Of a stretch of 64,000 nucleotides of DNA, positions 47,679 to 64,000 are shown one piece after another. The notes below the pieces were generated by a model that did not search any database, had not been told where the DNA came from, and worked only from the letters and a program-made list of their open reading frames with translations. A program made the translations under genes and the position numbers. Source of the DNA: Paenibacillus terrae (GTDB taxonomy: Bacteria > Bacillota > Bacilli > Paenibacillales > Paenibacillaceae); contig NZ_JTHP01000003.1 in NCBI RefSeq assembly GCF_000943545.1, positions 62,001-126,000 of the forward strand, given 5' to 3'. Each line of letters opens with the position of its first letter. The stretch's first letter is position 1.

Positions 47679-48191
47679 TTATGGCAAAAAATAAAGATAA
47701 GCACTGATCGCTCCCGGAATGACGGCGGTCATAAAAGGAAACCTGAGGTGTGCCTCCCTCCCGTTCGTCAGCGCCTTGCCGCTGCGAAACAGAAAGAATC
47801 CTCCCAGATTAAAAGCCACACGCCGCAATCTCATTATGGTTTCCCGTCTCCACAGAAGGATCACCAAACCAATAATACCCGCGAAAAAAATCGAATAGAG
47901 AGCCGACTGCCATGCAAAAGCAGCCCCCGTCCATGCTCCGATCAAGCCAAACAGCTTCACATCGCCAGCACCTACAGCTCCCATCCAGTACAGAATCAAC
48001 ATGAAGCCGAATCCCGTCCCCAATCCAGCCGCTGCAAATAAAAATCCATGCCATCCCCCAAATATCGTATTAAACAGCAAGCCCATTGCCATGCCGGGCA
48101 GCGTAAGCTTGTTAGGAATTTTCATACTACGTAAATCCGTGACCAGCGCAATCGCCAGTAAAGCACCACATACGATATACATCCACGTCAA
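47679..48191 (-). CDS. Prepilin peptidase TadV/CpaA-like (A24 family)
   Basis: 170 residues, about six membrane segments, lacking the N-terminal methylase domain of classical PilD. The two catalytic Asp positions are in LVTDLRSMKIPNKLTLPG and in the GxGD motif VGAGDVKLFGLIG. It should cleave the Flp pilin and TadE-type proteins before assembly. Part of the leftward Tad operon. Confidence 0.9.
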   Translation of the reverse strand: MTWMYIVCGALLAIALVTDLRSMKIPNKLTLPGMAMGLLFNTIFGGWHGFLFAAAGLGTGFGFMLILYWMGAVGAGDVKLFGLIGAWTGAAFAWQSALYSIFFAGIIGLVILLWRRETIMRLRRVAFNLGGFFLFRSGKALTNGREAHLRFPFMTAVIPGAISAYLYFLP

Positions 48192-51527: not shown

Positions 51528-52196
51528 TTACGGACCGTTCTGTCCATATTGCGTTAATACTTGTCCTGCAACTGCCGGATTTATCTTTTCACCTGAGCCT
51601 CTGCCCATAAATTTTGCTCCGTAATATCGAACCAGCTCTACCGTGCGAATCCATTCCACAGGCTCTACCACACCCGAGCTCATTGTTCCCTGTAAATCTG
51701 TCTGATCCAGAAACTGATTCAGCAAAGGCACTTTCACTATTTTATTCAGCTCTGTCGTCACCTTACGGTTGATCAGGCTGTTCTCATATGTCATCTGTCC
51801 CTGCATACCGGCAGGCATGCCACTCTCGGCGTGGGACAGCTTCTGGGCGGGCAAATCGCCTCCTCCACCGCCACCGGGCACCTGCACACTTACCTGATTA
51901 TTGGCTCCAGCCCAGCCAAACAAGGCACCCAGCATGGCATCATCCTTCAAGCGCCAATAAAGCGAATCTCGTTGTCCTTGGGTGAATGCGCCTGTACGCG
52001 GTTCCTTGAAGCTGTTATCCCAGCTATAAGCGGCTCGTTCCGAAGCTGTAGAAGCAACCTGCACCAAGATGGATTTTTGATATATGTACAGGCAAAAAAA
52101 TAACATCACAAAAATGACCAGCAACAGTATGGGAAAGACGAGGGAAGCTTCCAATGAGAAGCTCCCTTCCTCTTTGTGTGCCAAATTGCGCAGCAT
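51528..52196 (-). CDS. TadE-family pseudopilin
   Basis: 222 residues. GSFSLEASLVFPILLLVIFV is the processed TadE signature, with Glu at mature position 5, followed by a single membrane helix. The rest is an exported domain with a Gly-rich stretch near residue 115. Its ATG overlaps the Flp pilin stop by one base (TAATG), so translation is coupled. Confidence 0.82.
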   Translation of the reverse strand: MLRNLAHKEEGSFSLEASLVFPILLLVIFVMLFFCLYIYQKSILVQVASTASERAAYSWDNSFKEPRTGAFTQGQRDSLYWRLKDDAMLGALFGWAGANNQVSVQVPGGGGGGDLPAQKLSHAESGMPAGMQGQMTYENSLINRKVTTELNKIVKVPLLNQFLDQTDLQGTMSSGVVEPVEWIRTVELVRYYGAKFMGRGSGEKINPAVAGQVLTQYGQNGP

Positions 52197-52387
52197 TATG
52201 AATCCATGAAGTCGTTACTCTTTTTATCCGCTTTTTTCAACAGACCTTCTACAATCTTCTTGATCTGATCCTTGAAAATAATCGCCACCGCAATCAGAAT
52301 CGCGATAATCAGAATCATTTCCAACGTACCCAAACCGTCCTCATCCTTGTACAATTTACGAATACTACCTGTTACTAATGTCATCAT
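52196..52387 (-). CDS. flp: Flp-type (class IVb) pilin
   Basis: 63 residues. MMTLVTGSIRKLYKDEDGLG then TLEMILIIAILIAVAIIF: cleavage after Gly leaves a mature peptide with Glu at position 3-5 and one hydrophobic helix, the usual Flp shape, followed by a basic tail. The small size and position between TadC and TadE fit a major pilin subunit. Confidence 0.88.
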   Translation of the reverse strand: MMTLVTGSIRKLYKDEDGLGTLEMILIIAILIAVAIIFKDQIKKIVEGLLKKADKKSNDFMDS

Positions 52388-52400
52388 CGTTGTATTCCTC

Positions 52401-53279
52401 CTACATATTCATCATCATTAAGGCGGGAGCACCCACCAGCACAATAACCGTTAGCAAAATCAGCGCCATCGGAAATACCAGCTTAGACGAAGCCTGCTCC
52501 CCTCTTGTGCGGCTAATCGAAGTCCGCTTGTTCCATAACGTCTGGGACAACTCACGTAAAGCCATTACAAAATCGCTCCCGCCGCGTCTCATATTCAGCA
52601 ACACTGTTGTCGTAAACACCGTCATTTCCTGAATGCCGCAGCGCTTGCTCAAATGCTCAAATGCCTGTTGAAAGGAATAGCCGCTTTCCCATTCCCCCAC
52701 CGTCTGACGCAGCTCCCGGTACAACGGATGTACCGTATCCGCCCCTTTGCGCTCCACGCAATGAAGCAATGCCCGCTGTACCGTCTCGCCTGCGCCGACC
52801 AAAAGCATGATTTTACTCAGTAATTCAGGCAATTCCATTAAAATTTGCTGATCCCGCTTCTGTACCTTTCCGTGCAGATCCTTGACCAGCGCGATGGGTA
52901 CCAGAATACCCAGCCCCAATCCGAGCACCAGCCCGGTCGCATCCCCGCCCATCATGAGCGATATTAAAGCTCCACCAGCCGCCATCATGTATCCGTAACC
53001 CACCATTTCGGCCAGAAAAAGCATCGTTTTTTCCCCACTGTTGCGCATACCGTACAGCTTTTGTACTGAGCGCTGGAGCTTGAACATCAGCAAAGGCAGT
53101 CTTTGGGCGGCACGTGAAGCATGGATCATGTGTACGAAAGGAACCGAGAGCCTTTGCAGCCGCAGTCCTTCCAGCTTCATATGGCGAAAGCTCGCATACT
53201 TAGCACCGTATATCTGGTTCAGCACCACCCAACCTCCCACTTGCAGAACCAGCATGACCAGACAAACCAACATCACCAC
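52401..53279 (-). CDS. tadC: TadC-like inner-membrane platform protein
   Basis: 292 residues with a GspF/T2SSF domain: helical cytoplasmic segments between four membrane helices, including LLVGAGETVQRALLHCVER and MRRGGSDFVMALRELSQTLW. It pairs with TadB to form the membrane platform driven by the CpaF ATPase. Thirteen bases before flp. Confidence 0.88.
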   Translation of the reverse strand: MVMLVCLVMLVLQVGGWVVLNQIYGAKYASFRHMKLEGLRLQRLSVPFVHMIHASRAAQRLPLLMFKLQRSVQKLYGMRNSGEKTMLFLAEMVGYGYMMAAGGALISLMMGGDATGLVLGLGLGILVPIALVKDLHGKVQKRDQQILMELPELLSKIMLLVGAGETVQRALLHCVERKGADTVHPLYRELRQTVGEWESGYSFQQAFEHLSKRCGIQEMTVFTTTVLLNMRRGGSDFVMALRELSQTLWNKRTSISRTRGEQASSKLVFPMALILLTVIVLVGAPALMMMNM

Positions 53280-53291
53280 GCCTATCTCTCC

Positions 53292-54089
53292 TTACACCTC
53301 AATTTTCATAATGTGGTTAATCCATACGAGGCAGCCACCAAGCACCAATAGGCAAAAGGTAGACAAAATCATACCTGTCCCGCTGTATAACGGCATCATG
53401 TAATCTCCCGCAGTCATGGTCATAAACAGTACAAACAGAAAAGGCGCCGCAAACATAACCCTCGATTCAAAACGTTTCTGCGCGATCATCACACCGATCT
53501 CTTGCTGAATTTCCAGCTTCTCCCCTATAACACTTGAAGCCCGTCGCACGACCTCCACCAGATCACCCCCGGTTCGTTTGCAAGCTGCAAACACGTCCGC
53601 AAAATTCGTAATGTCCTCCATCTGCGCCCGACGAGCAAAATCCTGCAAAGCCGTCTCCACGGGTTGTCCAATTTCCAGACAGGCTGTAATAATGTTAAAT
53701 TCAAAAATCAGATCATGATCTCCATCCGGGCTAAGCAGCCTCAAATCCTCTACGGCCTCACGAAAGCCGTTCTCCACCGACCTCCCCGCCGAAAGGGAAG
53801 ACGAGAGCGAATATAAAGCCTGCTTGAATTGAATGCCCAGAGCCGACCTGCGCCGTTGCAGCAAAAACTGACGAAAATAACGAGGCGTCACCAAAGCTCC
53901 AGCAGCGCACAGCAACGACAGTATCCATTGATGATAAAAAAGATAGCCGATCATCGCGAAGAGCACACCACTAAAGAGAATACACAGGCTTTTTTGCACA
54001 GGTGACAATGTATATACCGTATAGTCCGGCAGGGAAGTAGCCTGACGGGATGCTTGCTCCGGCTTCACAGCCGCTTTTCCTGGCTTCAT
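53292..54089 (-). CDS. tadB: TadB-like inner-membrane platform protein
   Basis: 265 residues. Two membrane helices near the start, a T2SSF domain (LSSSLSAGRSVENGFREAVE, ACKRTGGDLVEVVRRASSVI) and two membrane helices near the end. Starts with a four-base overlap on the cpaF remnant stop, which shows that it was coupled to an intact cpaF. With cpaF broken upstream, its translation and function are in doubt. Confidence 0.88.
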   Translation of the reverse strand: MKPGKAAVKPEQASRQATSLPDYTVYTLSPVQKSLCILFSGVLFAMIGYLFYHQWILSLLCAAGALVTPRYFRQFLLQRRRSALGIQFKQALYSLSSSLSAGRSVENGFREAVEDLRLLSPDGDHDLIFEFNIITACLEIGQPVETALQDFARRAQMEDITNFADVFAACKRTGGDLVEVVRRASSVIGEKLEIQQEIGVMIAQKRFESRVMFAAPFLFVLFMTMTAGDYMMPLYSGTGMILSTFCLLVLGGCLVWINHIMKIEV

Positions 54090-54486
54090 ACCGACTCTTC
54101 CCCCCTGCTCCAGCTTTCCGGCTTCATCCCGGCCATTTGCAGCTTCAGCGTATGTTGCAGACCTTCACCGCAACGCTCCAGCCCTCCGACGATGCGTCCT
54201 TTACTTTCGCCCCGTTCCTGAAAACGATAGAGCGGATTGAGCACCACTTCACCATTTTCAAAGCCAGTTACTTCGCTAATTTCCAGCACCCGTCTGGATT
54301 TGTCCCGCAATCGTGACAAATGCACGAATATATCAATGGCCGAGCTGATCTGCTGCCGTACCACACCTAGTGGCAGCTCAGCCCCGCCCAGCACCATCGT
54401 CTCCAGTCTACTGACCATATCGCGGATATTATTTGCGTGTCCCGTCGATAGCGATCCATCATGTCCTGTGTTCATCGCCTGTACAA
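54086..54486 (-). pseudogene. cpaF: 3' fragment of the Tad secretion ATPase gene cpaF (tadA)
   Basis: About 133 codons in frame to the stop at 54086. The fragment begins VQAMNTGHDGSLSTGHANN, the conserved His-box segment of CpaF/TadA ATPases, and continues with RDMVSRLETMVLGGAELPLG to the C-terminus. The Walker A, Asp box and Walker B regions, which should lie before it, are absent: a recombinase gene of an integrated element begins instead within 60 bases. The remaining part cannot bind ATP on its own. The other half should lie beyond the element, outside the window. Confidence 0.93.
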
Positions 54487-54505
54487 TGTTTATAATAAGG
54501 TCATT
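54476..54505. other. Predicted attachment junction (attL or attR) inside cpaF
   Basis: Similarity to CpaF ends after VQAMNTG (54486-54466), and the recombinase terminator begins at 54506. The crossover of the serine recombinase must lie in or right next to this span; the exact core cannot be read without the other end. Confidence 0.6.
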
Positions 54506-54539
54506 AAAAAAACAAAAAAAGTGAAGGATACCCCCTCAC
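54506..54539 (-). terminator. Terminator after the recombinase gene
   Basis: GTGAGGG and CCTTCAC pair around a five-base loop, with the gene's TGA inside the stem, then TTTTTTTGTTTTTTT. Confidence 0.85.
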
Positions 54540-56251
54540 TCTCCATACTGCTCCATAAAGGCTATTTCCTCCTCATAGAGCATTTCCTCTTCGTAAATCT
54601 CTTGCTTTATAGTTGGGTTGTTATTTATAATGTCATCCTCATCAGAATCAAGAAATCTCCAGTTGATTTCTCTAAAAGTTTCATCCTCATAAGTTGTTAT
54701 AGTAATTCGTTGAAGAAATTTACGTAATACCACATTACTCAAATCATTCAAATCGAGGCTATTCAACTCTTTATTGAAATCTTCAAATTTTAACTTTAAA
54801 CTATATATTTCATCATCAATAAAATTCAATCTTTTAATTTCATTTTGTAACTTTTGCATTTCCGAATCAATAGATTGATTTCTGGTATTATATTCTTCGT
54901 CAGAAATAAATTTTTTAACTACCAACCTAAAGTTAGTCTCCTTCTCTTCAGCTAATTCAGTCAACCTTTCAGTATGTTCCTTTATTGTTTTAGCAAAGTC
55001 AACTGTTTGATATCTATTTTCAATTAGCTTTGTGTAGTACCAATCATTTATTTCTGGAGCATTGACACGTTCCTTTATCTCTTCTTTTATCCATTCAAGC
55101 ATTTCTTCTTCTCTTACTAAATTACGATATTCACATACAGAATTTCCGTATTGTTCATGATTACGACAATAATAATAATGGTGTGTCTGACGAGTTGTTT
55201 TTTGTACTTTTTTTCTCATCATCCCACCGCAATTTCCACAACATAATAAATTACTAAATAAATGAGAGGTTGAATATCTTCCCCTACCATTTGTCTCAGC
55301 ACCTGTTCTAACTTTTTTCCCATCATCATGTTTTGTGTTGTATGTGAAACTCTCAATATGCGGTCTACTAGCCATTTCAGCCTTTGCCCTAAAGAAAATC
55401 TCGTCATCTATAATTCTAAGTAGTTGATCATCATAAATAATCTGCTTATCGATTGGTATTTTCTCAATTAGATTAGAATTAATATCAGACTTTCTTGTTC
55501 TATGCTGTCTAACTTTACCTAAATAAATTTCATTTTTTAAAATCTTAGCAACATGTGATCCAGTCCATTTACCTCCACGCTTAGTTGGTATTTGATCATC
55601 TACATACAGTTTTTTAGCTATTTTATTCACTCCATATAAATCATTAATGTATAACTTATATATATTTCTGACTACTTCAGCTTCATACTCATTAATAACT
55701 AGTTTGCCCTTAATAATATTATAGCCGTATGGTTCTCTACCTGACCAAATGCCTTTTTTAGCCGCTTCTTTCTTTGCCCACTGTATACTATCACTTTTCG
55801 ACGTACTTTCCGCTTCAGCTAAAGTCGCAAACAGTTGAATCTTAAGCATATCGGCGTTGTTTAGTGAGAAAGATTGTATATCTTCAAACCACACGCCTAC
55901 ACCAATTTTTTTTAATTCGTCAATGTGAATCAGCATCTCTTTTACATTACGACCAAATCTGCTGACAGATTTAGTTAATATAACATCAAAGAATCCAGCT
56001 TTAGCATCTTTCATCATTTGAAGAAAAGCTTTACGGTACTTAGTTGATTTAGCACCGGAAAAACCTTCATCGACGTATCCCTTATATGGAATATTTCCTC
56101 CATCCCTGCTACTGAAAACACCAGATTCAGACAATATATAGTCATGATCCTCTGCGTACTTCATTAAGCCACTAATTTGATTATCTATTGATTGCTTTTG
56201 CTCTTCTTTGTCTGTTGAGCATCTAGCATAATATGTAGCAATTCTCTTCAT
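54536..56251 (-). CDS. Large serine recombinase (integrase)
   Basis: 571 residues from ATG 56251, six bases after AAGGAAGG. The resolvase domain has the catalytic Ser in YYARCSTDKEEQKQSI and the Arg pair in SVSRFGRNVKEML. A recombinase domain follows (KEAAKKGIWSGREPYGYNII) and a zinc ribbon (LCCGNCGGMM ... CEYRN), with coiled-coil segments near residues 430-500. Large serine integrases insert and, with a directionality factor, excise phages and elements. No candidate excision factor was recognised. It is the gene nearest the cpaF break. Confidence 0.95.
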   Translation of the reverse strand: MKRIATYYARCSTDKEEQKQSIDNQISGLMKYAEDHDYILSESGVFSSRDGGNIPYKGYVDEGFSGAKSTKYRKAFLQMMKDAKAGFFDVILTKSVSRFGRNVKEMLIHIDELKKIGVGVWFEDIQSFSLNNADMLKIQLFATLAEAESTSKSDSIQWAKKEAAKKGIWSGREPYGYNIIKGKLVINEYEAEVVRNIYKLYINDLYGVNKIAKKLYVDDQIPTKRGGKWTGSHVAKILKNEIYLGKVRQHRTRKSDINSNLIEKIPIDKQIIYDDQLLRIIDDEIFFRAKAEMASRPHIESFTYNTKHDDGKKVRTGAETNGRGRYSTSHLFSNLLCCGNCGGMMRKKVQKTTRQTHHYYYCRNHEQYGNSVCEYRNLVREEEMLEWIKEEIKERVNAPEINDWYYTKLIENRYQTVDFAKTIKEHTERLTELAEEKETNFRLVVKKFISDEEYNTRNQSIDSEMQKLQNEIKRLNFIDDEIYSLKLKFEDFNKELNSLDLNDLSNVVLRKFLQRITITTYEDETFREINWRFLDSDEDDIINNNPTIKQEIYEEEMLYEEEIAFMEQYGE

Positions 56252-56414
56252 AAGCACCTTCCTTATAATGAATACTATGTTTATATAAAGGTTATCATTA
56301 AAACAAAAAAAATAATAGCTTAATTACGTATCAGACACACTACAGCATGTTAATTGTAGATATTTTTTTTATTACCACATAAAATGTATTTATCAAACAT
56401 AAGGAAGTGTACCA

Positions 56415-56969
56415 ATGAAATCATTAAATCAGCAAACAACGGTAATTTTATTATTACTCTTATTATCTGTATTCGGAATTTTTATATTATTTTTTCCCAA
56501 ATTCGAAATGGCACTCTTTATCTTCTCATATGCTACTCCTGTTCTTTTTTTAATAATACAACTACTACAAATTTTTTATTCTAGGAAATTCATTAAGCTT
56601 CCTGCCAAGTGTCAATACAACTGGTTTAACCGAATTGAAATACACATTGGAAAAAAAATAAAATACCGAAGAGATTTCATTAGGCAAATGCATAAACTAT
56701 TAGTTATATCGAAAAAAAGAAAAGCGAAAGTAACTGCATATACTTGGCTAGTTTCATCTAAAAACATCAAAAATTTATTAGGAGATTGCGCAACAGTAAC
56801 AACACCTAGTCCTTTCGAAGAGTTTTCCCAAAAATTTTTAAATAAGATATATAGAAAAGTTCTAAAAGAAAAGAAGAATATCCTCCTACCTTTCATAAAG
56901 GTTGAGATAGATACTAATAAAATAACTCAAAATCAGTTAGATGACATTGCGCTTAAATATAAATTATAA
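56415..56969 (+). CDS. Membrane protein of unknown function (first of a pair)
   Basis: 184 residues, start ATG 56415 after AAGGAAG. Two adjacent hydrophobic segments (~9-29 and ~33-53) are followed by ~130 residues of basic, mixed helical-strand sequence (ISKKRKAKVTAYTWLVSSKN). No named domain recognised. It runs opposite to the recombinase and is followed, after 64 bases, by a second membrane-protein gene, then by a terminator, so they form a two-gene unit. Confidence 0.75.
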   Translation: MKSLNQQTTVILLLLLLSVFGIFILFFPKFEMALFIFSYATPVLFLIIQLLQIFYSRKFIKLPAKCQYNWFNRIEIHIGKKIKYRRDFIRQMHKLLVISKKRKAKVTAYTWLVSSKNIKNLLGDCATVTTPSPFEEFSQKFLNKIYRKVLKEKKNILLPFIKVEIDTNKITQNQLDDIALKYKL

Positions 56970-57033
56970 CCTGCGATATCCTTCTATTCTATTTGTTAAA
57001 AAGTTCAGACAAGATTACGAGGAGATAATTTAT

Positions 57034-57609
57034 ATGACATTTACTGCTTGGATAATTCTCACAATCATTATTCTGATTATAATTGACATTAATGTTCTCG
57101 ACAGTTTTGAAAAGACACTTATACAACCAATCAAACAGAAATTTAAATCTAAATCCACATTTTATAATTACAGAAAAACCAAATTGCTGTATCAGGCATA
57201 TCAAAGTGAAGCACCCTATGACTTGAAGCTTCATAAAGATTATTTAGAATATATCACCCCCAAAAGTAATTTCTTTTTAATCCTTATAGATTCTTTTATA
57301 AAGCTGATCTACCCTCTATTCACCTTTATTATTCTATTTCTTTTAACGTCTAACAGCACTTTATTTCAAATGAGGATTAATAAATCTGATAACAATGATA
57401 CTCCTACTCTCATTGAGAATTTCATTAAAGTAATCAATAATATTGTTGAGAATAACGTAACAAGCATCTTGCTTATTACTCTTTTTGTAGCCCTCTTATT
57501 CATTTGCACAAGCTTAATTCATGACAGAAAATCAAAAATTGTTGAGCTTCACAAAAATCTTATTGACCGAATAATTGAAGAAAAAGAGAAAGATGATTCT
57601 TTAGATTAA
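57034..57609 (+). CDS. Membrane protein of unknown function (second of a pair)
   Basis: 191 residues from ATG 57034, which has GAGGAG upstream. One membrane segment at the N-terminus (AWIILTIIILIIIDINV), a soluble basic stretch (KQKFKSKSTFYNYRKTKLLY), then two further hydrophobic segments near residues 85-105 and 145-165. The charged C-terminus ends EEKEKDDSLD. Function unknown; paired membrane proteins on such elements are sometimes exclusion or abortive-infection systems, which is only a guess here. Confidence 0.72.
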   Translation: MTFTAWIILTIIILIIIDINVLDSFEKTLIQPIKQKFKSKSTFYNYRKTKLLYQAYQSEAPYDLKLHKDYLEYITPKSNFFLILIDSFIKLIYPLFTFIILFLLTSNSTLFQMRINKSDNNDTPTLIENFIKVINNIVENNVTSILLITLFVALLFICTSLIHDRKSKIVELHKNLIDRIIEEKEKDDSLD

Positions 57610-57615
57610 GATAAA

Positions 57616-57661
57616 AAAGTAAAATCCCAATTCTTCAGGTAGAAGAGTTGGGATTTTATCT
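57616..57661. terminator. Terminator between the membrane pair and the GNAT gene
   Basis: AAAATCCCAA and TTGGGATTTT with an inner CTTC/GAAG stem, A/T-runs on both sides; serves both convergent transcripts. Confidence 0.85.
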
Positions 57662-57692
57662 ATAGAAAAATATATAGATATTTATAAATGGA

Positions 57693-58295
57693 CTAAATAA
57701 TATCCAACTTATTAAAATATTCATCAATATTTAGGCGTAAACTTATGATGTTACCCGCAGTATTTCCGTTTTGTATTTCTAGATTTTTCACAAATCCTAT
57801 ACGTTCATTAGTGTAGAACGCTAATCTATGTGGAAAACAATCGAGAGTAATAAATTTGACTCCAGCAATTTGTTCTCTCATATCGAATGCTTTTAAAATA
57901 GCATACTGTATTAGCCATTTACCAATGCCTTGCTTTTGGAAGTTCTTATGTACCGCCAATCTAGCTATTTTTACGGAAGGAAAAATCTCATAGCCAATTT
58001 CTCCGTTATTTCTTTCTGAATAATTAAGTCGAATTCCATCAGCACATAAAGACAAGTAACCTATAATAACTCCATCATTGTTTTTAGCTAAAAAAGTTGT
58101 GTTATAACCTTCAGCTTGTTCAGCTAAAGATTCGTCCGCTAAGAATTTATTCATGTCTTCCGAATGGCGACGAAGCTCTTTTCTTTTTCTGTTATGGATC
58201 GAACGATATTCATCTTCATTGATACAATCAAAATTAGATAGGTTATCTAAATCATCCTCAGATAGCCTATCTATAGTATATCCTTCATAAGACAT
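57693..58295 (-). CDS. GNAT acetyltransferase, possible toxin of a TA-like pair
   Basis: 200 residues from ATG 58295, which stands one base after the stop of a 50-aa gene; the longer frame up to 58409 overlaps that gene. The acetyl-CoA binding block reads KIARLAVHKNFQKQGIGKWL with the R-x-x-Q-x-G-I-G loop, followed by FITLDCFPHRLAFYTNERIG, the pattern of the TacT/AtaT-like branch of GNAT enzymes. The N-terminal ~60 residues are acidic and helical. Coupling to a small upstream gene makes a toxin-antitoxin-like role plausible; small-molecule acetylation is the alternative. Confidence 0.8.
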   Translation of the reverse strand: MSYEGYTIDRLSEDDLDNLSNFDCINEDEYRSIHNRKRKELRRHSEDMNKFLADESLAEQAEGYNTTFLAKNNDGVIIGYLSLCADGIRLNYSERNNGEIGYEIFPSVKIARLAVHKNFQKQGIGKWLIQYAILKAFDMREQIAGVKFITLDCFPHRLAFYTNERIGFVKNLEIQNGNTAGNIISLRLNIDEYFNKLDII

Positions 58296-58296
58296 A

Positions 58297-58449
58297 TTAT
58301 TTTCCTTTTCCTTCAAAAGACTTAAAATATTCTTTAAGTTTAAGGGCATTCTGTCTGGATTTTTCGGTTGGTTTATTTTCGAGTGATTTAAGCAATCTTT
58401 GTGCATCACGTCCGTACAGTGTCGGGGTCGCAGCCATTTGAGTAGCCAT
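58297..58449 (-). CDS. 50-aa protein coupled to the GNAT gene, possible antitoxin
   Basis: ATG 58449 has GAAGGG seven bases upstream and the frame ends TAA one base before the GNAT start. It reads MATQMAATPTLYGRDAQRLL then KSLENKPTEKSRQNALKLKE, a short helix-rich chain with a TPTLYGRDA opening. I recall similar small proteins in front of GNAT genes in Firmicutes, but I cannot name the family. Shape and coupling fit a small antitoxin or partner. Confidence 0.7.
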   Translation of the reverse strand: MATQMAATPTLYGRDAQRLLKSLENKPTEKSRQNALKLKEYFKSFEGKGK

Positions 58450-58956
58450 CTTTTTTCCCTTCTTTCTTTTGTCCACTTTTCATGTCATCTCCTATCAACT
58501 TAGATAGAAGATATATATGACGAAAAACAAGAAAATATGTTTAATAGGTTTACTAAGTAAACTCTATTGAATTTCATTGTATCATATTGCACGTGTTATA
58601 TGCTACGTGAAACGAAGAAAAAATGGTACGATTTTCGTCTGAAAATAGACGATACTTTGAGGTATATTTCAAGTTAAAATAAGTCACAAAAAAGTTGGAA
58701 AGAAAAACGCCTAGAAATAGGAGCTTGGAGTCAATCAAATCCATTAAGTTTTGGACTAATTTTAAGACAAAATATCTAACAATCAATTAGTTTGTGAATT
58801 CTTTTATTCTTATACATAATTTTTAGGATTCCTAACCTAACTCTAAACTTTCTTAACACAGCCTTTACGTTCGTCTGAAGCTACTTTTATGTACATGCTC
58901 ACTCTGCTGGTAGCTTTTTAATACAACCACTAATGTTAAAATGCCAATTTTATAAA

Positions 58957-59064
58957 CTATCCATTGAATACTAGCCAGATGAATCCGTAGATTAAAGCCA
59001 TTAGTCCTATCATGCACGACAAGCAAAAAAGTAAAAGCATGAGAACAAATTTTTTACCTTCCAT
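58957..59064 (-). CDS. 35-aa single-pass membrane peptide
   Basis: ATG 59064, seven bases after GAGGTG. It reads MEGKKFVLMLLLFCLSCMIG and ends FIWLVFNG, almost all hydrophobic with a short basic start. Size and shape resemble small phage membrane proteins or type I toxins. No antisense RNA or partner was identified. The rest of 58450-59245 holds no other gene I can support; a GGGGAGGTG site near 59211 leads only to a five-codon frame. Confidence 0.55.
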   Translation of the reverse strand: MEGKKFVLMLLLFCLSCMIGLMALIYGFIWLVFNG

Positions 59065-59245
59065 AATAAACACCTCATTAAAGAATATAAAACAGCTAGA
59101 AGAAGTCGGCTACGATCCAATCAACTTTACATAAGAAAGGAATATGTAAAGGATACTATAGGTCGTTGTGTCCAAACACGCTAACCAATCAAGCGCATCA
59201 CCTCCCCAATATATCAAAATCTCATATTATAAGCTTTTTATCTAT

Positions 59246-60052
59246 TTAAACTAATTTTAAATTTGGCTTATTCATTTTCATGTCTGTGATATTCCCAAAC
59301 TCGTCCACTGTACTTGTGAATGATGGTAGCGGCTTGCCAATGATCTCCTGAACCATATCCAGAACGTCAAAGCCCTGTTGCTTCATCAATTTAATACATT
59401 CATGCATGAGGTATCCCGATACAGCACTGTCATTCAATAAAACACTATCTGTAGCAGCAAAATCTAAGAATGCACTTCCATCAATTACATCTGGCAAATC
59501 CTCAATTGCTTCAATCGTTCCTTTATAGTTCAATCTGCTCCAATCGTCCCTATCTTTATCCCGATTGAAGGAAAACAATCCAAGGAATTCGTCTTTCGTA
59601 AGAGGGTGCATATCGAAAAAGATTATATAGTGTTGTAGGCTAGGATAATTCTTCTCAAAAGCTTCCTTTAAACTGGAATCAATCTCAAGCATCATGGCCT
59701 TCTTATTTTCAAAATCATTCTTAACCTGTTTGGTTACTTCATCCAAATTATCACGAATATATGTACAAATACGTTTAGCTTCATTTGATGCCTTTCTAAA
59801 AACTCTTTCATATTGATTAACTTTATTACCCATATTATTCAGATAAATGATAGCGCTAGTCGTCTTTATTTTTGGTATTCTATAAGATACATCTGTCATT
59901 AATTCTACGGCTTCCTTGGATGTTCTGATTAAACCAGATTGAGACACTGTGAACTTACGATCTGCCTTTAAATCCTCAAAAGCACTAATCATCTGCATCA
60001 TACAGTCATCAAGCTCGTTGAGCTTTTGTTTAATCTCAAAGTTTTTGTCCAT
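59246..60052 (-). CDS. Hypothetical helical protein, 268 aa
   Basis: Start ATG 60052 after GGGAG. The N-terminal ~150 residues are predicted helical with charged heptads (NELDDCMMQMISAFEDLKAD, NEAKRICTYIRDNLDEVTKQ). The C-terminal ~110 are more globular (SLQHYIIFFDMHPLTKDEFL, LINDSAVSGYLMHE-type helix). No domain recognised. It is the last of three leftward genes that each carry an ACCAATACATAT-like leader motif 17-20 bases before the start. Confidence 0.75.
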   Translation of the reverse strand: MDKNFEIKQKLNELDDCMMQMISAFEDLKADRKFTVSQSGLIRTSKEAVELMTDVSYRIPKIKTTSAIIYLNNMGNKVNQYERVFRKASNEAKRICTYIRDNLDEVTKQVKNDFENKKAMMLEIDSSLKEAFEKNYPSLQHYIIFFDMHPLTKDEFLGLFSFNRDKDRDDWSRLNYKGTIEAIEDLPDVIDGSAFLDFAATDSVLLNDSAVSGYLMHECIKLMKQQGFDVLDMVQEIIGKPLPSFTSTVDEFGNITDMKMNKPNLKLV

Positions 60053-60071
60053 TTCTACTTTCTCCCTTTAA

Positions 60072-60083
60072 ATATGTATTGGT
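60072..60083 (-). promoter_or_regulatory. Leader motif copy 1 (ACCAATACATAT)
   Basis: Twenty bases before the start of the 268-aa gene; the ribosome-binding site lies between. Same motif precedes two neighbouring genes. Confidence 0.5.
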
Positions 60084-60125
60084 ATAACCGATCTATTATT
60101 TGATTTTACTTCTCAACCTATTAAA

Positions 60126-60458
60126 TTATTTTCTACAAAATTTATTCATTAAATCTAAGTAATCATCTATGAGCTTTTCTTGTTCATCAATATATTTATC
60201 AAAAACTCCTGTAAAATTCTCCAAGTCGTTTAGAGTTAAATTTAAATCAATTGATCCTTTAATCATCTTCTTCAATTGAACGGTCATGCTTTCTGCCACT
60301 TGTTTCCCTTTGTTGCGTAGCATTTGCAATTCATCATTAATAGAAAAGTCTGCCTTTTGCATAACATCTTCTGTTGTTTCAATAATTCCCAGGAATTTCT
60401 CATACATCACACCAGCATCGACCTGCATTTTAACAGGAATTTCAACTGTATTATTCAT
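60126..60458 (-). CDS. Hypothetical helical protein, 110 aa
   Basis: Start ATG 60458 after AAGGAG. Almost entirely helical with Leu/Ile heptads (MYEKFLGIIETTEDVMQKAD, FDKYIDEQEKLIDDYLDLMN). A small soluble coiled-coil protein; no family recognised. Middle gene of the three-gene set. Confidence 0.72.
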   Translation of the reverse strand: MNNTVEIPVKMQVDAGVMYEKFLGIIETTEDVMQKADFSINDELQMLRNKGKQVAESMTVQLKKMIKGSIDLNLTLNDLENFTGVFDKYIDEQEKLIDDYLDLMNKFCRK

Positions 60459-60474
60459 TTAATCGCTCCTTTTT

Positions 60475-60483
60475 ATATGTATT
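60475..60483 (-). promoter_or_regulatory. Leader motif copy 2 (AATACATAT)
   Basis: Seventeen bases before the start of the 110-aa gene. Confidence 0.5.
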
Positions 60484-60566
60484 ATTTTATATAATTCTGG
60501 CTGTATTTCATGTGAAGACAATCCAACACTAGCTCAATCCACATCACCCCTTTCAAGCCACTTCAT

Positions 60567-60857
60567 TCAATGAACAATCGTTTGCGAATGTACACCCTCA
60601 ATTTCGCTGATTTTTAAACTAGCCATGTCAAGGCTAGAGCGCATTGAATCTAGCCTTTTAGTGGTATCATCGGTTATTTCTTTAACATCACTAATATGCG
60701 CTCTTGTCATAGCTTGAATAGTATTTTTGACCTCCTCTACATATTCCCTAATCATCTGCTGGCTCTTCTTTGTCTTTAAATGAGAACTACACATCAAATC
60801 GACACCTTTCTCAAGTACTTTTTCAGCGTTATCAAAAGCCTCATTAAATTTATTCAT
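60567..60857 (-). CDS. Hypothetical helical protein, 96 aa
   Basis: Start ATG 60857 after GAGGAG (11 bases). Helical throughout (AFDNAEKVLEKGVDLMCSSH, LDSMRSSLDMASLKISEIEG). First gene of the leftward set. No family recognised. Upstream, 60862-61461 (~600 bases) holds no gene I can support; it contains a 74-codon hydrophobic frame that I reject and hairpins at 61320-61450. Confidence 0.7.
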   Translation of the reverse strand: MNKFNEAFDNAEKVLEKGVDLMCSSHLKTKKSQQMIREYVEEVKNTIQAMTRAHISDVKEITDDTTKRLDSMRSSLDMASLKISEIEGVHSQTIVH

Positions 60858-60875
60858 CTCATATTTTCTCCTCGT

Positions 60876-60887
60876 ATATGTATTGGT
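60876..60887 (-). promoter_or_regulatory. Leader motif copy 3 (ACCAATACATAT)
   Basis: Nineteen bases before the start of the 96-aa gene, same arrangement as copies 1 and 2. Confidence 0.5.
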
Positions 60888-61379
60888 GTTAATTCTGTTG
60901 CTACTTTTATGGCTCCTACTTTAAGCATATGACAAAGGAAATAAATCGTTAAGGTTTGTTATACTTTTTTTATTTTCCGTGCCTTCATCATCTAATTAGA
61001 CGTGCATCTAATTAATTCAATCAATCTATTTGCTACTTCTGCAACGGGTAACGATTAGAAAACTCCCCTTATCGGGTCGTGTTCTAACATTTACAGCATG
61101 GCATACGCCACATTGTTCATCTCATACACTGTTAACCTTATCCAAATCAAACGACTCAGATAATTAAACCAATTTTTACATCTCACCAATCTCGTCAGTG
61201 TATTCAAGAGTTTGATCGAAATATAGGCGAAAAAGGCATGTTTTTGACTATAACTTACAAAATTAAATGTGCAAAAAGCATAGGTAAACATTGAGTTTTT
61301 CATCAATCTCGTCAAATTTCTATATATTATATATAGGGAGATTGGATAGATTAATATCTGACAAGTTCAAGAATCTCAA

Positions 61380-61450
61380 TTAGTATATCCTCGTATGAGG
61401 AGAGACAAGGTATTGGAAATGTTTTCTCCAATATCCTTCCCTCGCATAAG
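61380..61450. repeat. Hairpin region downstream of the helicase-like gene
   Basis: GGTATTGGA (61411) and TCCAATATCC (61428) form a stem; flanking CTCGTATGAGG and CTCGCATAAG can extend it. No T-run, so terminator use is uncertain; it could be a structured RNA or a replication-related site. Confidence 0.4.
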
Positions 61451-61461
61451 TAGTTGAAAGA

Positions 61462-63321
61462 TCACAATCTAATGATTGAGCGGTATTCAATTCGAATCTG
61501 CTTTGTGTTTATGTACGTTTGGACGAGAATTAAATCTTTATTAAAGTGTCTTGCAAAATTAGTGCTGGAAATATTGAATTGCTTACCAATATCTTTCTTT
61601 AGATACGTTCCCGGTGGCTGTTTAAGTAACCAATCAACAATTTTCTCTGTCATTGTATCTTCATTTGATGATCCTGAAACACCATTTAATTCATGTCTGC
61701 TAACAAAATCATCTACAGCTAATAGGATTGGTTTGGCTATCTTGATATGTTTCAATTGTTTGGCTACCCCTCCATAAACCTCTTCTTCATTTGTCACAAT
61801 ATATATTTCTGCTTGAGGTTTGGGATTGCGTTGTACCCGTTTCACTGTCTGATACATATCAGATATGATTGTGGATTGCCTAATTTTCTCTAGGTCAGCA
61901 TTTTTGAAAGACTTAGTTTTCCCATTCTTAACAACACCAAATCCAATTCTCCAATCATGCCTATCCGTGTATTGGCATAAATGTATTACATGGGCCTCAA
62001 ACCGTGAATTAGGTGTACCAAGCAAATAGCAACAGTCAAAGTCACGCCAAGTATTTTTTCCAATTAGATTCCCATACCAGTTAACCGATATAGATTCGCC
62101 ATTATATTCATCCCCTATGGCAATATCCGTGAATTCAATTTGTCTGAGTTGACGAATAAAATCACCTTCATCACCGTTAGCAGATAACACGAACTCCTTA
62201 TGTAAGACAATCAAATAGCGCTTATCAAGCTTAAAGTTACGCTTAATGAAATTTGATACTTTCTCGAAATAACCATTGTTGCCTGTCTCAGTGTTCAGCT
62301 TCTTATGAATGCTGGTTTTGCTGGTGCTGCATTTAATGTGCGTTATCGTTGAGCCTGAATGGTCAATAAGCTTGGATTGTTTATCCAAAATAAATTTGAT
62401 ATTCCCGTTCTTCACACCGTATAGGTGATCTATCTGCCCGTTAGCGTCTAGTATTACATTGTTGTCTAGACAAAACAATCTGTGCTTTCTGTTATATGTA
62501 CTGAGCGAATGATAATTATAATAGCATGTGTTTTTATAAAATAATTCTAGTTTTTGTACGATGCCTTTGAGATTATTATAGACTGGTAATCCTTTGTCAC
62601 GGATAATCTCTGCATTGTTTTTATTTATGACATTACACAACTCATAGACAGGCTCCAAGCTATCTATTTTGGGATGACACCTTATGATCCCTGTGCTTGA
62701 GAGCTTTTTCCCTTCACTCGTCTTCATTCGCTCACATGCATTAACCTGATCAAGCAAGCCTTTGGTCGCATCATACAACAAGGGATGAAGAGTATGCGGT
62801 AAAATAGAAAATAGATTATTATACTCCGACCTACTGAAACTGGCAATATCAAAGTCGATACGTTCATCTATAATTTGTGTATGTCTGCCCTCTGTGAACG
62901 ATTGCCTCAATTCATCATCTTCACACAGCATTTTATAGCGTGAATGCGTAATAATGAGAACATCCGAATCACGTACAACCTCAAGATTATGGCGATAATG
63001 CTTCTGCCAACTTTCACTTGTAATCCCAATAACATGCTGACCTTTGCCTATAATTCGTACGCTACTGTCTCCAAATCCTTGGTACAATCTGTCTACATTT
63101 TCACCTATGTACTCTTCTGAATCTTCAACGTCCTTAGCAAACCGCTTCACCAACAGAAACTTCCTGTGTGGTTGCCCATAATTGATACCTGTAAACTGAT
63201 AGGACTCTATATAGTCTCTCAAAATCTTATTTGTTTCCACAGACTTCCCTAATGAAGCCTCCAAATCAATGACCACAAATGTATTCGGGTCTGTTTCACC
63301 ATCTAAAATCCTCCGTTTCAT
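61462..63321 (-). CDS. SF2-helicase-like protein with degenerate motif I
   Basis: 619 residues from ATG 63321. Motif I position reads VVIDLEASLGKSVET: the GKS is kept but the leading Gly-rich part is not. Motif II looks like IIDERIDF, and a motif VI-like QTVKRVQRNPKPQAEIYIVT lies late. The last ~70 residues look like a winged helix (WLLKQPPGTYLKKDIGKQFN). No ribosome-binding site precedes this ATG; the frame is open 28 codons further up (KLIHSNRSIPTFSDVYGEKY) to AAGGGG followed by ATA, so the true start may be non-standard. Probably a replication or DNA-handling protein of the element. Confidence 0.65.
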   Translation of the reverse strand: MKRRILDGETDPNTFVVIDLEASLGKSVETNKILRDYIESYQFTGINYGQPHRKFLLVKRFAKDVEDSEEYIGENVDRLYQGFGDSSVRIIGKGQHVIGITSESWQKHYRHNLEVVRDSDVLIITHSRYKMLCEDDELRQSFTEGRHTQIIDERIDFDIASFSRSEYNNLFSILPHTLHPLLYDATKGLLDQVNACERMKTSEGKKLSSTGIIRCHPKIDSLEPVYELCNVINKNNAEIIRDKGLPVYNNLKGIVQKLELFYKNTCYYNYHSLSTYNRKHRLFCLDNNVILDANGQIDHLYGVKNGNIKFILDKQSKLIDHSGSTITHIKCSTSKTSIHKKLNTETGNNGYFEKVSNFIKRNFKLDKRYLIVLHKEFVLSANGDEGDFIRQLRQIEFTDIAIGDEYNGESISVNWYGNLIGKNTWRDFDCCYLLGTPNSRFEAHVIHLCQYTDRHDWRIGFGVVKNGKTKSFKNADLEKIRQSTIISDMYQTVKRVQRNPKPQAEIYIVTNEEEVYGGVAKQLKHIKIAKPILLAVDDFVSRHELNGVSGSSNEDTMTEKIVDWLLKQPPGTYLKKDIGKQFNISSTNFARHFNKDLILVQTYINTKQIRIEYRSIIRL

Positions 63322-63397
63322 ATTTAAAATTTTATTTGTATACTTCTCACCATAAACGTCAGAAAATGTTGGAATAGAACGATTGGAATGTATTAGT

Positions 63398-63619
63398 TTA
63401 GCCCCTTACTGGCATTCTGCTGGCATACTCATGAAACTCATGATCGGTTTTATAATCTGCCATTGCCTGTTGTAAGCGTTCACTAGAGCAAAACAAATAA
63501 ACATTCCTGTCACTCTTTAAATCATCACCAATCGCAACCAGCATAAATCCCTTTAATTGAAGGTAAAGAGATAGTTTGCGCGAATGAATGACAGTTGTCT
63601 CCTTAGATATATAGACCAC
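63398..63619 (-). CDS. DUF5659-like small protein
   Basis: 73 residues from GTG 63619. The body reads KLSLYLQLKGFMLV ... NVYLFCSSERLQQAMADYK, the pattern of the small DUF5659 proteins found on Firmicutes phages and elements: a hydrophobic strand pair followed by F-x-x-S-x-x-L-x-x-A-M-x-x-Y. A strong AAGGAG lies inside the frame, nine bases before an ATT codon, so the true start is uncertain. It precedes the helicase-like gene and overlaps its possible extended frame. Confidence 0.65.
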   Translation of the reverse strand: MVYISKETTVIHSRKLSLYLQLKGFMLVAIGDDLKSDRNVYLFCSSERLQQAMADYKTDHEFHEYASRMPVRG

Positions 63620-63809
63620 TCCCGTTGTTTTTCAGTTTTCAAAGATCACACAACAAATAAACTTAACGATTCATATCAGAAAGAAAAAATAAAACAATAT
63701 TAAGTTGCCAATCCTAAAAATAATTTCATTTCTTCTATCTAATCTAGTATTCATCTCATCTACTTACTGTGTTGTAAATCTACTTTGTTGATTGTATTCG
63801 TGGTAATGC

Positions 63810-63818
63810 ATATGTATT
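63810..63818 (-). promoter_or_regulatory. Leader motif copy 4 (AATACATAT) in the 5' leader
   Basis: Same nine bases as at 60072, 60475 and 60876, here about 190 bases before the DUF5659-like gene and with no gene start directly after it. Confidence 0.35.
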
Positions 63819-63930
63819 GTCTACTACTTAACTTTCATTCCCTTTGATCCCGTTTCATCTTCGCTTCATTTTGCGTCTCCTTTTCTTTGTGATTCCAACT
63901 GAATTCGCTACGTTCAAATGGTGTGTTTAT

Positions 63931-63959
63931 AATATAGCACCGTCCTACAATACTGTCAA
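63931..63959 (-). promoter_or_regulatory. Strong sigma-A promoter reading left into the element
   Basis: TTGACA at 63959-63954, 17-base spacer, TATATT at 63936-63931. It gives a leader of ~310 bases before the DUF5659-like gene. The leader holds a good AAAAGGAG site followed by three tiny overlapping frames (MKRR, MKRDQRE, MKVK). Confidence 0.8.
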
Positions 63960-63978
63960 GAATATTTTTCAAAAAAAA

Positions 63979-64000
63979 GATATTGGAGGAAACTTACGTT
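63979..64000 (+). other. Possible ribosome-binding site of a rightward gene beyond the edge
   Basis: ATTGGAGGAAACTTACGTT at the very end resembles a Shine-Dalgarno site with a start codon just past the window. Confidence 0.3.

Follow-up and report, generated by a model that had tools for sequence, protein, structure and literature searches.

Several mobile elements of spore-forming bacteria interrupt a chromosomal gene, and precise excision of skin, vfbin, vrin, gin, and yin is known or thought to occur (PMC4191935, PMC5595907, PMC10747680). The phages SPβ and φ3T, which split spsM and kamA, respectively, also excise, with SprB controlling the timing for SPβ (PMC4191935), and they carry the integrase gene int and the excision-factor gene rdf at opposite ends, with only the phage attachment site, attP, between them after excision (PMC6957869). 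Other genes are hit recurrently, i.e., comK, comYC, comM, and comFA, the last by divergent integrases at two sites (PMC4774983), and there are families of large serine recombinases (LSRs) in which many diverged members use a single conserved bacterial site, attB, in one coding sequence, such as that of a prolyl isomerase (PMC10083194). Here we describe a 32,425-bp element that divides cpaF, the motor gene of the Tad pilus, in Paenibacillus terrae. One end of it lies in the window, by which we mean the whole 64,000-nucleotide stretch of DNA analyzed (G000:C3:62001-126000, where G000 is the host's own assembly).

The element shares with SPβ and φ3T an LSR, the profile of which (A1) matches the structure chain of the SPβ integrase YokA (E 9e-31), as well as the division of a coding sequence and attP arms that form inverted repeats. 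The recombinase gene is at one end and a small open reading frame (ORF), here a candidate excision-factor gene, is at the other, the two becoming neighbors across attP once the element is circular. The element leaves both halves of cpaF intact and in register, as do gene-intervening elements of the skin and SPβ type, and in mechanism it matches the known LSR gene-intervening elements. Unlike the genes entered by those elements, cpaF is not a sporulation gene and has no known developmental regulation, and the 15 listed matches to phage records are at most 29% identical. SPβ and φ3T excise, whereas the P. terrae element is known here from sequence alone and has no phage structural gene in the 29 of its 42 ORFs that were scanned. 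The comparison with comK-type insertions, drawn in an earlier reading of the window's letters (the original prediction), is apt in that one gene is hit recurrently, but the target here is a Tad pilus motor, for which a role in transformation in this genus is hypothetical. The LSR families with a single attB are likewise comparable in that many diverged recombinases use one coding-sequence site, but the words "Tad," "pilus," "T2SSE," and "secretion" are absent from the main text of the paper describing them, as available (PMC10083194).

The 3' part of cpaF, on the minus strand, encodes VQAMNTGHDGSLSTGHANN and is immediately preceded by AT-rich DNA and the LSR ORF. The frame reading NIVQAMNTGHDG opens at window position 54517 (minus strand), and its cpaF portion starts at a CA core, 54481/54480. 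The 5' part is on the same contig outside the window (G000:C3:148904-149764) and ends with GEVRGSEALDML (L005); the distance between the two CA cores is 32,425 bp. In cpaF sense, the junctions read GCGTTGGATATGTTA CA TGACAAATC on the 5' side and ATAAACATTGTA CA GGCGATGAAC on the 3' side, and in G060, a genome of the same species, cpaF runs uninterrupted across the junction as GATATGTTA CA GGCGATGAAC. The insertion point is codon Q287, with the Walker-B stretch (GEVRGSEALDML) before it and the His-box (QAMNTGHDG) after it. Searched with CpaF, the host genome gave one part covering residues 1-287, another covering residues 283-418, and otherwise weak matches only; a PF00437 search of the assembly returned both pieces of cpaF plus a single weak match, in a 611-aa frame, and a full-length cpaF was found by neither search of the assembly. 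The original prediction had placed an element inside cpaF, at an attachment site in a highly conserved part of the gene. This holds, with the His-box segment in frame, the core just before it, the LSR ORF ending ~55 bp from the core, and the 5' half present beyond the element. The prediction was to be given up if that half were missing or a full-length cpaF lay elsewhere, and neither was the case; two of the checks it proposed, a comparison of the junctions and a search of relatives, gave a readable crossover core and an uninterrupted cpaF, respectively.

The sequence makes it very probable that this is a 32,425-bp mobile genomic island integrated by its own LSR into a cpaF attB at CA, in codon Q287. 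The insertion is not a chance event, since G060 is uninterrupted and other species are cut at the same core, and an assembly artefact was rejected as well, with same-core junctions in nine assemblies, one of which (G015) is a single contig. The cpaF halves are free of stops in G000, G062, G037, and G015, with adjoining codons the same as those of intact relatives, and their dN/dS is low, like that of intact pairs; for the two P. terrae halves it is 0.036 and 0.056 against G060. The low dN/dS and the lack of stops suggest that the insertion is either recent or reversible, and do not distinguish the two. As a separate observation, the CpaF of G060 (433 aa) has a longer and different C terminus than that of the near relatives compared, as if from a late frameshift before tadB (L046:4900-5043).

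The LSR ORF carries Resolvase (PF00239), Recombinase (PF07508), and zinc-ribbon (PF13408) domains, all over cut-off, and Y10, R12, S14 (which we take to be the catalytic serine), and other residues of the N-terminal domain are invariant across nine LSR sequences. Both junctions contain the CA in each of the nine elements read at this site (site 1). In G062, G015, and G235 the two hybrid sites, attL and attR, share CA alone, and in the others they share a longer stretch that includes it. The attP arms are inverted repeats around CA in all nine elements, at 14 to 20 of 24 positions compared to 7 to 9 expected (shuffle p ≤ 0.003), while the attB arms are symmetric at 4 to 8 of 24 positions (eight elements read) and thus have no clear symmetry. 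As for known LSRs, the core is short (2 bp) and attP and attB differ, attP being imperfectly palindromic; the predicted attP, that is, the joined element arms around CA, has the anatomy of a serine-integrase site.

The same interruption recurs in the family Paenibacillaceae, for which we used a sample of ~394 genomes, 75 of them from the genus. Close LSR homologs (E ≤ 1e-60 against the P. terrae recombinase) occur in 11 of 394 family genomes, and cpaF is split at about residue 286 in 10 of these 11; the search for related recombinases beside cpaF had also been proposed in the original prediction. Both junctions could be read in nine of the ten, the halves in G287 being on two contigs. Members include P. 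terrae PIC167 (G062), Paenibacillus sp. PCH8 (G037), P. glycanilyticus (G333), P. dokdonensis (G171), P. cellulosilyticus (G296), and P. paridis (G345), and a further case, read on the 5' side only, is found in P. allorhizosphaerae (L082). The elements range from 18.6 to 41.6 kb and have a G+C content of 0.34 to 0.38, compared to 0.475 to 0.561 in the fetched flanks (eight elements measured). In an LSR tree of 40 rows (11 site-1 rows, from the ten split genomes and P. allorhizosphaerae; 7 of the 13 rows of a second site described below; and 22 others; the long-branched L026 was left out), the site-1 rows form one group with support of 96/97. A PF00437 search of the genus found cpaF interrupted in 6 of 75 genomes, with both halves in G000, G015, G037, and G062 and only the 5' half there in G026 and G008. 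The G026 genome, a single contig (G026:C1:4316681; L043, L044), keeps attR and a small ORF at that end, and neither the cpaF 3' half nor tadB was found in it; it represents decay after insertion, an irreversible outcome.

Three observations weigh against the simple picture of a precise, cpaF-specific insertion that inactivates the motor. The interrupted gene still encodes a CpaF truncated to 286 residues, followed by a tail from the element, and this product could have some function. For some elements the junctions do not define a unique core; attL and attR of G171 share CAGGCGATG. Finally, cpaF is uninterrupted in G193, the 11th genome with an LSR homolog, whose recombinase adjoins the site-1 group in the tree and is a near relative of that clade outside cpaF.

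A second site lies close by. In G008, cpaF is cut 27 bp downstream of site 1, and the two sides share TC only. Relatives of the G008 recombinase (E ≤ 1e-80) were found in 21 of 388 family genomes, and 13 of the 20 loci fetched have a cpaF 5' half, with the cut directly after HDGS (HEGS, HSGS, or HEGR in some); the 3' half was located for G008 only. At the remaining seven loci no cpaF was found within ~1.5 kb. The site-2 rows form one group in the LSR tree (100/100), well apart from the site-1 group. Counting the ten split site-1 genomes, the G026 remnant, and the 13 site-2 loci, cpaF is interrupted in at least 24 distinct genomes of ~394. The G008 element has terminase, portal, capsid, sheath, and baseplate genes and is an apparently complete myophage. 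This myophage (G008:C68:681696-737174; L130-L132) also encodes an AgrB-family protein, which suggests peptide signaling in the prophage.

The contents of the elements differ widely. When their genes were linked (ORFs of ≥60 aa, E ≤ 1e-6), the only family common to all ten elements compared was that of the serine recombinases, together with small resolvases. In G333 the element, of 41.6 kb, is a siphophage prophage, with genes for portal, a Clp-type protease, capsid, head completion, and tail. The P. terrae element, in contrast, encodes an Mrr nuclease, AbiJ-domain and HEPN proteins, a WXG100-headed protein, a second small resolvase, and many proteins of no assigned family. With 29 of its 42 ORFs scanned at Pfam cut-offs, it yielded no phage structural gene (terminase, portal, capsid, tail) and no relaxase, coupling protein, or type IV secretion system domain of the kind found in integrative conjugative or mobilizable elements; on the same 29 ORFs a complete prophage was rejected for this element, and it was accepted for those of G008 and G333. 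The 57 ORFs of the G062, G037, and G015 elements gave three PemK/MazF matches and one MrpR-like match, and Eco57I-type methylase, SLATT, and TIR domains are among the cargo of five other elements. The recombinase and its attachment site form a cassette on elements of very different content, from a siphophage prophage to defense- and toxin-like islands.

Two gene arrangements inside the P. terrae element deserve mention. A 457-aa regulator (L004:2134-3507, minus strand) with a helix-turn-helix-like N terminus and weak matches to phage-regulator profiles has a homolog in the G062 element and is overlapped by a 47-aa ORF with a signal-like N terminus (L004:2016-2159, minus strand); we take the two to resemble a peptide quorum-sensing pair such as Rap-Phr or arbitrium. 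At L004:298-1798 (minus strand) the WXG100-headed protein, of 378 aa, is followed by a 117-aa ORF, presumably in the arrangement of a secreted antibacterial toxin and its immunity protein. The features of the window are listed in Table 1; searches of Pfam, PHROG, and PADLOC found nothing for the 619-aa protein at the limits applied.

TABLE 1 Features of the window, numbered from its first nucleotide
Feature	Position	Strand	Basis or remark
Prepilin peptidase (Peptidase_A24)	47679..48191	-	Family match
Flp-type pilin (Flp1_like)	52196..52387	-	Family match
tadC-like gene	52401..53279	-	Open frame; name presumed from gene order
tadB-like gene	53292..54089	-	Open frame, downstream of cpaF; name presumed from gene order
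cpaF 3' part	54086..54481	-	Open frame, from codon Q287 of the uninterrupted gene
attL crossover core, CA on the cpaF strand	54480..54481	-	Junction comparison
Element portion within the window	54482..64000	.	Continues beyond the window to G000:C3:148904 (L005:2904)
LSR, 573 aa, phrog_95 integrase	54536..56257	-	Domain and profile matches
GNAT acetyltransferase (cargo)	57693..58409	-	Domain match
Three small ORFs, 268/110/96 aa	59246..60857	-	First two with homologs in the G062 element
619-aa protein, no family	61462..63321	-	578-aa homolog in the G171 element

By established LSR biology, attP of the circular element would recombine with attB in cpaF to give attL and attR, and the reverse reaction would need an excision factor (recombination directionality factor, RDF). 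An integrated element would prevent synthesis of complete CpaF and therefore assembly of the Tad pili. A candidate for the RDF is found at the attR end, where 7 of 11 site-1 elements have an ORF of 59 to 72 aa that starts 40 to 50 bp inside the core and points in the tad direction. It is of one type (A) in G000, G026, and G062 and of another (B) in G037, G015, G235, and L082. A stretch resembling a ribosome-binding site can be seen by eye in front of most of these ORFs (weak in G235), and their dN/dS values of 0.12 to 0.30 in five of five pairs indicate that they are probably real proteins. The small proteins had no significant match among known RDFs, in phage families or records, or among solved structures, including the SPβ YotN chain. 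In G171, G296, and G345 the recombinase gene takes this place at attR, and G333 has no small ORF there, a divergent type-B match lying 5.9 kb inside. When the G000 region was scanned for terminators, no candidate appeared on the cpaF strand, and the layout predicts that tad transcripts would read the small ORF, which by its position is a candidate excision-factor gene. The recombinase ORF looks intact, as do the two att halves, and this candidate adjoins attR, so that excision of the element appears possible.

Why cpaF should be the target can be explained in several ways. The explanation to which we give close to an even chance is that the DNA between the Walker-B stretch and the His-box is a conserved, dispensable landing pad, and that the elements gain nothing from the loss of pili: because the DNA is very conserved and the gene widespread, different recombinases would have settled there independently. 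A degenerate 35-mer around the core matches with zero mismatches in 239 of 394 family genomes and 69 of 75 genus genomes (a match compatible with the site-2 cut), one of the cassette-bearing elements, that of G333, is simply a phage, and the low dN/dS and lack of stops in the split halves fit recent insertions of low cost. Taken alone, however, conservation leaves unexplained why two distant LSR clades chose the same pilus gene and why comEC is also interrupted in this genus.

Those two facts are accommodated if the insertions block transformation, an explanation that we put forward tentatively and that need not exclude a conserved landing pad. It holds that the genus takes up DNA through the Tad pilus and that insertions in cpaF shield the elements from removal by homologous recombination with incoming DNA. 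ComEC is present in 75 of 75 genus genomes; the host has a 941-aa ComEC, with genes adjacent to it that we take to be ComEB-like and ComEA-like, and DprA. It has no ComGA-type ATPase, the best match to the ComGA model being 2e-12. Seven other sampled genus members do no better than 1e-19, while 44 of 151 genomes of the class pass the cut-off, and a full-length PilB/GspE-like match is present in only 4 of 75 genus genomes. The two distant LSR clades target the same gene ~27 bp apart, and two of the 75 genus genomes have comEC itself in two pieces: in G030 these are ~44 kb apart (G030:C15:84459-129146; L133-L135) around a Tn7-like insert with TniB, rve/Mu transposase, and TniQ, and in G055 they are ~54 kb apart (G055:C1:5726440-5780779) around an insert read at its ends only. 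A third candidate, G005, was rejected, since it looked like frameshifts within one locus.

Precedents exist elsewhere. Micrococcus luteus, which has comEC and comEA but nothing resembling the other known competence genes, needs its Tad genes for transformation (PMC4322843), DNA uptake is reduced in a Liberibacter cpaF mutant (PMC8513845), genes targeted by LSRs are enriched for DNA competence genes (PMC10083194), and protection of this kind has been proposed for the repeated insertions in comK, comYC, comFA, and comM, from which Croucher et al. argued (PMC4774983). On the other side, the literature, as far as surveyed, yielded no case of Tad-dependent transformation in Paenibacillus, and other genera of the family have PilB-like ATPases, one such genome (G381) also carrying a site-2 insertion. 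In ten more genomes of the genus there is a second T2SSE-family match, a shorter one of 84 to 161 bits, and conserved DNA alone could explain the choice of site.

An extended form of the transformation-blocking explanation seems unlikely to hold as a whole. With Tad as the uptake pilus, cpaF would be the counterpart in Paenibacillus of comK and comYC, and two distant LSR clades, carried by siphophages, myophages, and defense islands, would have converged on the Walker-B/His-box DNA to stop their own removal. Since the tad transcript would read into the excision-factor gene in the commonest layout, demand for pili could then trigger excision and restore the motor.

We think it rather improbable that the element is, as the original prediction suggested it could be, a programmed, reversible switch, in which conditional excision restores cpaF, as for SPβ in spsM and φ3T in kamA, and the small attR gene encodes an excision factor read from the tad transcript. 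The conserved coding of the tad-directed ORF at most site-1 attR ends, the opposite placement of int and rdf in SPβ and φ3T, and the open path for transcription on the cpaF strand in G000 favor it. Against it, the small proteins match no phage family, phage record, or solved structure significantly, int takes their place in three elements and G333 has no ORF there, and G026 has no detectable cpaF 3' half or tadB to be restored. Little credence is given to phage exclusion, in which the element would profit from pilus loss because Tad pili serve as phage receptors; the defense-like cargo (Mrr, AbiJ-domain, and HEPN proteins in P. terrae; methylase, SLATT, and TIR domains in five others) would suit it, but we know of no Tad-dependent phage of Paenibacillus.

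Whichever of these accounts for the choice of cpaF, the integration of a mobile island by its own LSR extends the set of genes recurrently and precisely interrupted by mobile elements to a pilus motor gene. In the open literature, searched in part, neither cpaF nor Tad was found as an integration site in titles and the openings of abstracts, and what is apparently new to that extent is the cpaF target, the convergence of two clades on sites ~27 bp apart, and the single cpaF-specific cassette common to phage and islands. The finding supplies recombinases with matched attP/attB pairs for two sites in one gene. It also raises a testable question for Paenibacillus, that of how DNA is taken up in a genus with ComEC, a ComEA-like protein, and DprA and, here, no recognizable ComG motor.

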